Source: Actinotalea sp. (GTDB taxonomy: Bacteria > Actinomycetota > Actinomycetes > Actinomycetales > Cellulomonadaceae). From it: a stretch of 10,987 nt of DNA. The stretch lies in contig JACIXM010000423.1 in the NCBI GenBank assembly GCA_014360395.1, positions 1 through 10,987 of the forward strand, given 5' to 3'. Below are positions 8,615-10,987 of this stretch, in pieces. Position 1 is the first letter of the stretch, and the number at the start of each line of letters is the position of its first letter. The notes under the pieces were generated by a model. It had not been told where the DNA came from. It saw only the letters and a program-made list of their open reading frames with translations, and did no database searches. The translations under genes and the position numbers were made by a program.

Positions 8615-9130
8615 ATGGTCACGTCCGGGAACGGCCCCGCGCAGCAGGTGCGCGAGGTGGTGGAGCCGGTGGTGGCCGCTGCCGGCCTGTACCTCGAGGA
8701 GGTGGCGGTCGTGCGCGCCGGCCGCCGCTCGGTGGTGCGGGTCACCGTGGACCTGTCGCAGGACGACGTCGGCAGCCTCGACTCCGACCGGCTCGCGGAG
8801 GTCTCGCGCGACGTGTCCGCGGCCCTGGACCGCAGCGACCCCGTGCGGGGCGAGTACGTCCTGGAGGTCTCCACGCCGGGGACCTCCCGGCCCCTGACCG
8901 AGCCGCGGCACTTCCGCCGGGCACGGACCCGACTGGTCCGGCTCGCCCTGCGCGACGGTGGCGCGGTGCAGGGACGTCTGGTCGCCGTGACGGACGACGA
9001 GGTGCTCGAGCTGGAGACCCCGGCCGGGACCACCGCGGTCGCGATCGCGGACGTGGCCCGCGGCACGGTCGAGCTGGACTTCCGGGGCGGGCAGGAGAGC
9101 GCCGACGGCGCCGAGGACGAGGAGGGCTGA
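8615..9130 (+). CDS. rimP: Ribosome maturation factor RimP
   Basis: Binds the 30S precursor and helps late maturation of the small ribosomal subunit. 171 aa from ATG 8615, with a strong ribosome binding site GGGAGG (8604-8609) five bases upstream, unlike the leaderless genes nearby. The N-terminal alpha/beta domain covers about 8-93 and includes the signature [20 protein letters not shown] (81-100). The C-terminal SH3-like domain spans about 103-156 ([20 protein letters not shown], then [15 protein letters not shown]). The tail is acidic ([11 protein letters not shown]). Its stop overlaps the nusA start by one base (TGATG), so the two are translationally coupled in the standard rimP-nusA-ylxR-infB operon. 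Confidence 0.97.
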
Positions 9131-10185
9131 TGGACATCGACATGCAGGCGTTGCGCCTGGTGGAGCACGAGCGGGAGATCAGCCTGGACACCCTCGTGTC
9201 GGCGATCGAGCAGGCGCTGCTCTCGGCGTACCACCGCACCAGCGGTGCCCACGAGCACGCCCGGGTGGAGGTCGACCGGCGCACGGGGCACGTCACCGTC
9301 TGGGCGCGCGAGAAGATCGCCCGGCCCGTCGAGCCGGTGGCCGACGAGGCGGGGGAGGACCCCGCGTCCGCGGCTCCCGCACGCCCGGCGTTCGACCTCG
9401 GCCCGGAGTTCGACGACACCCCCGAGGGCTTCGGCCGCGTGGCGACCGCCACGGCCCGGCAGGTCATCGTCCAGCGCCTGCGCGACGCCGAGGACGAGCA
9501 GGTGCTCGGCAGCTTCCGCGGGATGGAGGGCGAGATCCTCGCCGGCGTGATCCAGCAGGGTCGCGACCCGCGCACGGTCCTCGTGGCCGTCCGCGGCACG
9601 GAGGCCGTCCTGCCGCCGCACGAGCAGGTGCCCACGGAGCGGTACGTGCACGGCGAGCGGCTGCGCTCCTACGTCCTCGACGTCTCCCGCGGCCCGAAGG
9701 GCCCCTCGATCACCCTGTCGCGGACCCACCCCGGGCTCGTCCGCAAGCTCTTCGAGCTGGAGGTGCCCGAGGTGGCCGACGGCTCGGTGGAGATCACCGC
9801 GCTCGCCCGCGAGGCCGGGCACCGCACCAAGATCGCCGTCCGGAGCGCCGTGCCCGGCCTCAACGCCAAGGGCGCGTGCATCGGACCCATGGGTGCGCGC
9901 GTGCGGGCCGTCATGGCCGAGCTGCACGGGGAGAAGATCGACATCGTCGACCACAGCGACGACCCCGCCGAGATGGTGGCGCACGCGCTCTCGCCCGCCC
10001 GGGTGAGCTCCGTCACCGTGGTCGACCCCGTGGCCCGGTCCGCCCGGGTCGTCGTGCCGGACTACCAGCTGTCGCTGGCCATCGGCAAGGAGGGGCAGAA
10101 CGCCCGCCTGGCCGCGAAGCTCACGGGATGGAAGATCGACATCCGGTCCGACACGGCGGACGAGGCCACCGGTCCCGCCTCGTGA
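9130..10185 (+). CDS. nusA: Transcription termination/antitermination factor NusA
   Basis: RNA polymerase-associated factor that modulates pausing, Rho and intrinsic termination, and rRNA antitermination. 351 aa, the short actinobacterial form without the C-terminal acidic repeats of E. coli NusA. The N-terminal polymerase-binding domain is at about 1-122, S1 at about 130-196 ([15 protein letters not shown]...[11 protein letters not shown]), KH1 at about 200-275 with GPMG (252-255), and KH2 at about 278-345 with GKEG (319-322). An Ala/Pro/Glu-rich insert (about 67-95) interrupts the N-terminal domain. GGAGGG at 9121-9126 inside the end of rimP is its ribosome binding site; the ATG overlaps the rimP stop. 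ATG 9142 (Met5) is a less likely alternative start. Confidence 0.97.
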
Positions 10186-10195
10186 CGCGGCGCGC

Positions 10196-10201
10196 TAGAC
10201 T
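10196..10201 (+). promoter_or_regulatory. Putative internal -10 box upstream of ylxR-infB
   Basis: TAGACT lies 11 bases after the nusA stop. A transcript would begin near 10208 and carry ylxR and infB without rimP-nusA. No clear -35. The GTG at 10207 is correctly spaced for a leaderless start, but its frame does not encode YlxR. Confidence 0.4.
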
Positions 10202-10258
10202 GCCTGGTGCTGGACCGCGGGTCCGGCTCCCCGACCACAGCACAGGTGGCGCCGAGCG

Positions 10259-10282
10259 CGTCACGGGTCCCGTCACGGGTCC
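10259..10282 (+). repeat. 12-bp tandem duplication just before the YlxR core
   Basis: CGTCACGGGTCC occurs twice in direct succession with no mismatch. Twelve bases is four codons, so in the ylxR frame it would read VTGP-VTGP if the gene starts upstream; otherwise it is in the leader. Confidence 0.8.
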
Positions 10283-10283
10283 G

Positions 10284-10550
10284 GTGCGCACGTGCGTCGG
10301 ATGCCGGAGGCGCGACCAGCAGACCGACCTGCTGCGGGTGGTGCGCGTGGCCGGCGACGAGGGTGACCTCGCCGTCGTCGACGCACACCGGTCCCTTCCT
10401 GGGCGAGGTGCCTGGGTGCACCCCGACCCGCAGTGTCTCGAGCTCGCCGAACGGCGACGCGCGTTCGCCCGTGCCCTGCGCGCGGGGCCGATCGACGTGT
10501 CGCACGTGCGGCGTCACCTCGAGGACCGGTCCGGCCGACCGTCGGCCTGA
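10284..10550 (+). CDS. ylxR: YlxR/RnpM-family RNA-binding protein
   Basis: Small nucleic-acid-binding protein found between nusA and infB in many bacteria; the Bacillus member (RnpM) has been reported to bind RNase P RNA. The core begins RTCVGCRRRDQQTDLLRVVRV and continues with LPGRGAWVHPDPQCLELAERRRAFARALR, the family's GRGA signature. The start is ambiguous. GTG 10284 (used here, 88 aa) begins right at the core. GTG 10182 would give 122 aa and overlap the nusA stop as GTGA. I prefer the shorter form because codons between 10185 and about 10215 have unusual third bases (AGA, GCT, CCT, GGT, GCT, GGA) and a promoter-like TAGACT lies there. Neither start has a good ribosome binding site. Family call secure. 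Confidence 0.85.
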   Translation: MRTCVGCRRRDQQTDLLRVVRVAGDEGDLAVVDAHRSLPGRGAWVHPDPQCLELAERRRAFARALRAGPIDVSHVRRHLEDRSGRPSA

Positions 10551-10592
10551 CCGGGTTCACCGTTCATCGACAAGGAAGCGGGCTGGAAGCCG

Positions 10593-10635
10593 ATGGGCCC
10601 CCGATGAGTACCTACCGATGAGTCCCCAGAACTGA
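10593..10635 (+). promoter_or_regulatory. Three overlapping leader mini-ORFs upstream of infB
   Basis: ATG 10593-TGA 10607 encodes MGPR, ATG 10604-TGA 10621 encodes MSTYR, and ATG 10618-TGA 10635 encodes MSPQN. The first two stops each overlap the next start as CGATGA, so one ribosome could pass along all three by termination-reinitiation. GGAAG at 10585-10589 is a possible ribosome binding site for the first. They lie in the 128-nt ylxR-infB gap and end 10 bases before the hairpin that hides the infB ribosome binding site. Translation of the mini-ORFs is inferred, not shown. Confidence 0.5.
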
Positions 10636-10645
10636 CGACGGTCCG

Positions 10646-10674
10646 CTCCTGTCCGGGCGGGCCGAGGACAGGAG
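10646..10674 (+). promoter_or_regulatory. Hairpin sequestering the infB Shine-Dalgarno sequence
   Basis: CTCCTGTCC (10646-10654) pairs perfectly over 9 bp with GGACAGGAG (10666-10674), around an 11-base loop. The 3' arm contains GGAG, the infB ribosome binding site (10671-10674, four bases before GTG 10679). Folding would block infB initiation. A competing helix, GGTCCG (10640-10645) with CGGGCC (10658-10663, one G-U pair), overlaps its loop and could not easily coexist with it. Together they look like the expression platform of a translational leader. Confidence 0.6.
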
Positions 10675-10678
10675 AGTT

Positions 10679-10987
10679 GTGGCAAAGGTCCGCGTCTACG
10701 AGCTCGCGAAGGAGCTCGGAGTCGAGAGCAAGGCCCTCATGGCCAAGCTCAACGAGATGGGGGAGTTCGTCCGTTCGGCGTCCTCCACCATCGAGCCCCC
10801 CGTCGTGCGTCGCCTCCGCGACGCCTACCCCGCCGGTGGCGCTCCCGCGGAGAAGCCCGCGGCGAAGCCCGCCCCGAAGGCCCAGAAGCCCGCCGCGCCC
10901 GCGGCCCCGGCCGCTCCGGCCGGCGGTCCGGCGTCGAAGGCCCCGGCCCCGGCGGCCCCGCAGCCGCCCGCGGCCGAGCCGCCGGCC
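10679..10987 (+). CDS. infB: Translation initiation factor IF-2, N-terminal part (3' end beyond window)
   Basis: GTPase that brings initiator fMet-tRNA to the 30S subunit and promotes subunit joining. GTG 10679 with GGAG four bases upstream; 103 codons lie in the window and the frame is open at the edge. The protein begins [20 protein letters not shown], the conserved IF2 N-terminal domain (about 1-50, ending [13 protein letters not shown]). From residue 52 it enters the Ala/Pro/Lys-rich linker typical of actinobacterial IF2 ([17 protein letters not shown]). The GTPase and C-terminal domains are outside the window. It ends the rimP-nusA-ylxR-infB gene string, with a 128-nt structured gap before it that probably controls its translation. 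Actinobacterial IF2 is long, so most of the gene is not seen. Confidence 0.95.

Follow-up and report, generated by a model that had tools for sequence, protein, structure and literature searches.

What is the role of the short reading frames that precede infB, the gene for translation initiation factor IF2, in an Actinotalea genome? The stretch of DNA analyzed here (the window, 10,987 nt) carries rimP, nusA, ylxR and, at the right-hand edge, the beginning of infB (Pfam), and a gap of 128 nt separates the ylxR stop codon (10548-10550) from the infB GTG (10679). The initial annotation placed three overlapping mini-ORFs in this gap, at 10593-10635; their coordinates and frames prove exact, and the units are joined through two ATGA overlaps. 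The window contains exactly two copies of CGATGAGT, at 10602 and 10616. Table 1 shows the arrangement, including a hairpin downstream of the chain and its pairing with the infB Shine-Dalgarno (SD) sequence or codons, which the annotation did not contain. A scan for promoters and terminators returned nothing, with no intrinsic terminator-like site found. An Rfam search of 10100-10987 (evalue threshold) gave no match in the leader and only four matches, at 10239-10398, all below gathering. Further upstream, at the rimP/nusA junction (9128-9132), the last base of the rimP stop codon is the first base of the nusA ATG.

Table 1. Elements of the infB leader and their positions in the window.
Feature	Position	Strand	Basis
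SD-like purine stretch AGGAAGCGGGCTGGAAG, candidate for loading ribosomes on mini-ORF 1	10573..10589	+	
Mini-ORF 1, MGPR(stop)	10593..10607	+	corresponding unit found in relatives
Mini-ORF 2, MSTYR(stop), ATGA-joined	10604..10621	+	frame and coordinates checked
Mini-ORF 3, MSPQN(stop), ATGA-joined; stop ends 3 nt 5' of the hairpin	10618..10635	+	
Arm 1 of the leader hairpin; core GGTCCGC 10640-10646	10639..10648	+	MFE
Anti-SD strand CTCCTGTCC, partly hairpin loop	10646..10654	+	9-bp complement of 10666-10674
Arm 2 of the leader hairpin; core GCGGGCC 10657-10663	10655..10664	+	MFE
infB Shine-Dalgarno region GGACAGGAG	10666..10674	+	predicted partner of 10646-10654 once arm 1 is occupied
infB (IF2), N-terminal part only, GTG start	10679..10987	+	Pfam IF2_N, E 4e-15
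Arm 3, GGTCCGC, end of infB codon 3 to codon 5	10687..10693	+	alternative arm 2 partner

The annotation held that such a chain is unlikely to arise by chance. For the window alone this is only suggestive, because a chain of three appears in 33/5000 dinucleotide shuffles of the 220-nt stretch upstream of infB (9/5000 for 120-nt shuffles), and it is the comparison with relatives that decides the question in favor of the claim. The loci compared comprise the best 80 of 178 confirmed named infB loci, 131 infB loci of the class (Actinomycetes) chosen across genera, and the window; L057 and L188, with upstream sequence of 71 and 126 nt, were too short and were removed, reducing 212 loci to 210, and L057 was kept in the codon counts (n=211). 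The detector allows NTGA, TGATG and TAATG joints within 240 nt of infB. A chain of at least three mini-ORFs is present in 204/210 loci and in 1.8% of 10,500 dinucleotide shuffles, and is missing from six loci; the loci are related, and counts over them are not independent events. With NTGA joints only, the chain is found in 187/210 loci, again against 1.8% of shuffles. Stop and start codons overlap at the joints, of which 414 are ATGA, 15 TGATG, 14 GTGA and five TAATG. Among 320 control windows, each 240 nt long and taken from other parts of 80 loci, one contains a chain (those of L057 fall inside infB); infB leaders from outside the class contain one in 0/25 cases, 40 genomes having been tried and 25 having given an infB match. 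Both the chain and its stop/start overlaps are kept through the class. The annotation had suspected conservation across actinobacteria and proposed the ylxR-infB gaps as the place to look for it; its mention of ATGAGTAC repeats before infB in Streptomyces is likewise right, the sequence there being ATGAGCACTCGATGAGTACGCGATGAGTACGC.

A second survey used R1, a model built from the leader (including 18 nt of infB) and searched through 296 genomes of the phylum without infB anchoring. R1 matched 27 of the 29 class genomes among those listed (the list is ordered by kinship and does not extend to 241 genomes without a match), with the position at infB left unconfirmed for G002 and others; the window's own genome has a single match, at the infB leader. 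Weak matches fall at nine places in eight genomes outside the class, and these were rejected as infB leaders, since 0/9 lie at an IF2 N-terminus. A second match in one class genome (G109) lies away from infB and is not followed by an IF2 N-terminus. The pattern ATGAGYACN{1,4}CGATGA was discarded as a count across the phylum: in most matches listed outside the class the spacer is 2 nt, so that a single frame is preserved and the site resembles an ordinary protein start. Outside the class, L251 (G588:C34:115500-116000) shows a tandem CGATGAGCGCC, read as MSAR(stop)-MSAR(stop)-ATG..., that runs into an ORF other than infB. In eight loci (L095-L098, L100, L108, L111 and L112) a conserved block resembling CATTGTTGTGTAACGACGAG lies about 40 nt upstream of where the chain begins and is possibly a promoter for the leader.

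The geometry of the chain fits translated reading frames. Neighboring ATGA tetramers at most 30 nt apart, chosen irrespective of frame, are spaced by 2 mod 3 in 360/384 cases (219/239 in genus representatives and 155/176 among distinct segments), mostly at 11, 14 or 17 nt, and the units therefore gain or lose whole codons. Middle units consist of 4 or 5 codons in 226/244 cases, and CGA is the last codon ahead of 312/428 NTGA joints. The first unit, for which no stop overlap is needed, may begin with ATGG (48/204 chains). The chain reads MSTR(stop)-MSTR(stop)-MSTP... in Streptomyces, MAAR(stop)-MSTHR(stop)-MSTQR(stop)-MSTQH(stop) in Cellulomonas, and MSTP(stop)-(GTGA)-MKxxR(stop)-(ATGA) in another group. 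No run of one amino-acid codon was seen in the listed peptides, and no stall motif was recognized. Pairs of units that differ at a single position do so synonymously in 28/82 cases in the ORF frame, compared with 23 and 19 in the other frames and an expectation of 21% (p 0.003, the unit pairs not being independent), which amounts to a modest amino-acid constraint. Because synonymous differences are only modestly enriched, the frame seems to matter more than the peptide. The last mini-ORF is longer, at about 20 codons or more, in L154, L156 and similar loci; in L154 and L156 it nevertheless ends just 5' of the hairpin.

The units also differ in their potential to load ribosomes. Over 204 loci, mean pairing with the anti-SD sequence is -7.9, -2.95 and -2.15 kcal/mol for the last three units in order (shuffled, -4.2), and it reaches -5 kcal/mol or stronger in 90% of loci for the first of them and in 10% and 1% for the next two. 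The pairing of infB itself averages -9.2 kcal/mol and is strong in all 204 loci. In the window the purine stretch before the first unit forms an anti-SD duplex of -9.3 kcal/mol, the second and third units reach -5.7 and -2.2, and infB -9.7; the weak SD-like pairing that unit 2 has of its own counts against a single loading site. Since the later units have little SD-like pairing, they should mostly need termination-reinitiation. The annotation had left the choice between selection and duplication open. Class-wide conservation, frame-preserving spacing and SD-like pairing confined mainly to the first of the last three units speak for selection, and comparative evidence strongly supports the view that the coupled mini-ORFs are selected. 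Duplication fits the near-identical units of some clades, but it is not needed, because diverged units still keep frame and overlap, as in the chain of L178 (MSTP(stop) GTGA MKYQR(stop) ATGA MNVHRS(stop)).

Structure in the leader begins where the chain ends. Removal of chains below three and of tails outside 30-75 nt left 200/210 loci, in which the chain region gives no structure signal (mean z 0.0) and the tail from the last stop to infB is structured (mean z -2.2). The first paired base lies 0-4 nt after the last stop in 184/200 loci. The whole leader of the window folds with no unusual stability (z +1.1), the signal being local to the tail that follows the last stop. The core hairpin, arm 1:arm 2, is paired in 95.1% of cells across 72 tails. 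Its position immediately behind the last stop would fit a ribosome whose location decides the fold.

When the 5' arm is masked in folding, a second partner of arm 2 appears, namely infB codons 3-6 (AAG GTC CGG GTN); in the window, arm 2 can pair with arm 1 or with infB codons 3-5. In the 143/200 loci that have both arm motifs, arm 2 pairs better with its own infB codons (-14.93) than with permuted infB arms (-12.75, sd 0.19). Against synonymous recodings the arm 2:infB pairing has a mean z of -1.20 over 200 loci, compared with +0.09, -0.03 and -0.12 for other codon blocks, and 44 loci fall in the best 5% for the block of the infB helix, compared with 11, 8 and 17 for the control blocks. The helix is paired in 93.9% of cells (62 sequences), and RNAalifold chose it unprompted on the full leader. 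At the wobble position of the infB Arg codon, 51/62 sequences pair with infB as opposed to 29/61 with leader arm 1, through CG, UG, GC, UA, AU and GU pairs. Where infB has C for T at position 2 of codon 4, the leader carries G rather than A in 13/14 loci, against 44/144 otherwise (158/211 loci entered this comparison, 29 lacking the infB motif and 24 the 3'-arm motif). Codon 4 encodes Val as GTC in 140 and GTT in 13 of 153 loci, and as GTG or GTA in none. Codon 6 is GTG or GTA in 107/211 loci. GTA is a Val codon normally rare in high-GC genomes; it stands at codon 6 in 83/211 loci, where the neighboring GTATAC may have a further role.

For both helices, paired cells, doubly changed cells and covariation score exceed nearly all shuffles (0/500), whereas pairs changed on both sides show no excess, 100/500 and 419/500 shuffles reaching the count. 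The alignments behind these figures, A1 (72 sequences) and A2 (62), were hand-picked and include the window, and A2 is without several divergent tails; A3 holds 54 of the 56 listed sequences. The leader thus combines, as modeled, two mutually exclusive helices, arms 1:2 and 2:3, both paired with covariation, and a variant that involves the SD in the window.

In this variant, which the window shares with many of its relatives, the loop pairs with the infB SD instead (CTCCTGTCC:GGACAGGAG), and with arm 1 masked the MFE structure of the window contains the SD pairing and not arm 2:arm 3. Own loop and SD pair at -17.80, compared with -16.61 (sd 0.38) after swapping, in 28 loci that were chosen by outcome, so that only the within-set swap is informative. 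Masking of arm 1 gives the infB helix in 140/200 loci, the SD helix in 52 and neither in eight, counts that are without a shuffle control. With arm 1 free, the leader:infB helix is already in the MFE structure of 119/200 loci, and the open state may therefore need co-transcriptional folding. A full pseudoknot of both window helices was set aside by judgement: the connecting loops would measure 0-3 nt, which makes alternative helices likelier.

The consequence of masking for the infB start depends on what is measured. Opening of the start (-16 to +15) is computed to cost 7.3 kcal/mol with arm 1:arm 2 formed and 18.4 kcal/mol with arm 1 masked, although synonymous recodings already give 7.2 of this difference of 11.1 kcal/mol. 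The real difference exceeds its recoding control in 177/197 loci; masking raises the cost by more than 2 kcal/mol in 196/197, and the difference is below 0 in none. In the window, computed SD accessibility drops from 0.54 in the free leader to 0.01 when the 10 nt that follow the last stop are blocked. Over 200 loci, however, mean SD accessibility is unchanged by masking (0.56 to 0.58), falling by more than 0.3 in 6/200 and rising in 10/200. SD pairing alone was accordingly rejected as an explanation of the switch, and the effect is visible only when the whole start footprint is opened.

On balance, the ylxR-infB gap is probably a translational attenuator that is run by the mini-ORF relay and exerts negative feedback on IF2. 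In such an attenuator one SD would load a ribosome on mini-ORF 1, and units 2 and 3 would be reached only by a terminating ribosome that re-initiates at the overlapping ATGA. The number of ribosomes that finish the last unit would then be a product of successive reinitiation probabilities and would report IF2 with fMet-tRNA; since each step of the relay needs a new initiation, a drop in initiation capacity should steeply reduce the traffic that reaches the end of the relay. The arm 1:arm 2 hairpin would compete with the pairing of arm 2 to infB codons 3-6 or, in the window, of the loop to the infB SD. With few ribosomes at the last unit, arms 1 and 2 would pair and the infB start would be open. 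Ribosomes on the last stop would mask arm 1, the alternative helix would close the infB start, and IF2 synthesis would go down; full relay traffic is therefore predicted to close infB. We infer from the layout that the mini-ORFs are translated, and likewise the quantity sensed and the sign of control, for which negative feedback on IF2 is the simplest reading. The proposal that the chain reports initiation capacity to infB was already made in the annotation and would gain here a concrete means of output in the exclusive helices that follow the last stop. More tentatively, the leader may be a class-wide initiation sensor, in which serial reinitiation through at least three mini-ORFs gives a steep read-out of IF2/fMet-tRNA and a ribosome-gated switch controls infB.

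Ribosomes that finish the relay could instead melt the hairpin and hand over to the infB start, or keep it open, and so boost infB. A last stop commonly 42-48 nt from infB would suit such positive coupling, as would a reported case in which AUGA termination-reinitiation made downstream expression uORF-dependent (PMC11260477, in part). However, infB has strong SD-like pairing itself in 204/204 loci, and masking of arm 1 makes the computed opening of its start costlier almost everywhere; positive coupling is considered unlikely. Slightly less likely again is a relay in which the quantity sensed is drop-off of short peptidyl-tRNAs, or termination, in place of reinitiation. Drop-off may be frequent on units as short as 4-5 codons and is reported to be promoted by IF1 and IF2, and NTGA joints need RF2, so that high IF2 would empty the relay; Karimi et al. 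reportedly described the removal of short peptidyl-tRNAs by IF1/IF2 in 1998. The uniform length of the middle units and the frequent CGA before NTGA joints agree with such a sensor, yet the start-stop overlap is not required by it, and high IF2 would, with the predicted switch, open infB and create positive feedback.

Two further explanations leave more of the leader unaccounted for. Rho-dependent control is known in translated bacterial leaders, which lends general plausibility to transcriptional polarity, with translation of the relay controlling the access of Rho to the leader; the lack of an intrinsic terminator-like site has no bearing on Rho. Polarity is nevertheless improbable, leaving unexplained both the leader:infB helix and the short distance from stop to hairpin. 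Lastly, the repeated GATGAGTAC might act as an untranslated nucleic-acid motif bound by a protein, the ORFs being incidental. The units are indeed highly similar in Streptomyces and in Cellulomonas, but their spacing keeps the frame, the chain persists through changes of joint (ATGA, GTGA, TGATG, TAATG), the A that follows ATG can be absent from the first unit, and the chain is without structure signal, all of which make a protein-bound motif very improbable.

In yeast, several very short uORFs precede GCN4, and the probability of reinitiation reports the availability of initiator tRNA and initiation factors (PMC5972666, in part). Very short uORFs and a proposed reinitiation read-out make GCN4 the nearest functional analogue of the infB leader. 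GCN4 differs in its scanning 40S ribosomes and spaced uORFs; the infB leader is bacterial, has stop-start overlaps and a predicted RNA-helix output, and its target would be the factor itself. Should the leader be an initiation sensor, the third arm of its switch would often lie inside the infB coding sequence and the whole would be a bacterial counterpart of GCN4-type control, an idea that we put forward with similar reserve. In erm-type attenuators, one arm is covered by the ribosome that occupies a leader ORF, and exclusive hairpins around the SD/start are switched in this way. The infB leader resembles them in its short, putatively translated leader ORFs and its computed, mutually exclusive helices. 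By contrast, erm senses stalled elongation in the leader ORF, whereas the infB leader has a chain of units, no recognized stall motif and a third arm within the coding sequence.

Closer relatives of the joints are found in mycobacteria. The uORF uPPE2 is linked to ppe2 by AUGA, as in the infB leader, and reporters support termination-reinitiation there; it is a single uORF with direct gene coupling and a B12 riboswitch, and the part of the paper available concerns neither a chain nor infB (PMC11260477). Small ORFs coupled by RTGA are over-represented in mycobacteria, but these couple directly to an annotated gene, and the text, supplements aside, makes no mention of infB or of a chain (PMC4633059, in part). 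The initiation-factor genes infB and infC are under conditional or feedback control in Escherichia coli as well, IF3 auto-repression being among the controls (PMC6511841, PMC2965389); infB is governed there by promoters, mRNA stability and a cold-shock bias, and the sections that treat it describe no mini-ORF leader (PMC6511841). The rimP-nusA-infB operon has another conserved element, the rimP-leader motif, which is a terminator located before rimP and not before infB (PMC2965389, in part). Streptomyces infB is a reported member of the SigR regulon (PMC5472188, in part). No description of the infB mini-ORF chain was found in the literature searched, which included few subscription papers and had supplements outside its scope; the accessible portion of PMC8079986 is likewise without one.

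Coupled uORFs in mycobacteria and AUGA reinitiation are thus already known (PMC4633059 and PMC11260477, each in part). The infB leader looks built to sense initiation, and it precedes the very gene whose product drives initiation. To our knowledge, the known bacterial attenuators sense elongation (through stalled ribosomes), ligands or proteins. Conservation of the leader extends through a class with antibiotic producers such as Streptomyces among its members. Even if the proposed signal is set aside, the covarying helix that joins the leader to infB codons 3-6 is a widespread regulatory structure that can be tested. If true, the proposed mechanism would account for the setting of IF2 levels in actinobacteria and provide a natural assay for reinitiation, and mini-ORFs of 4-5 codons, below the usual length limits of annotation, would be under long-term selection.
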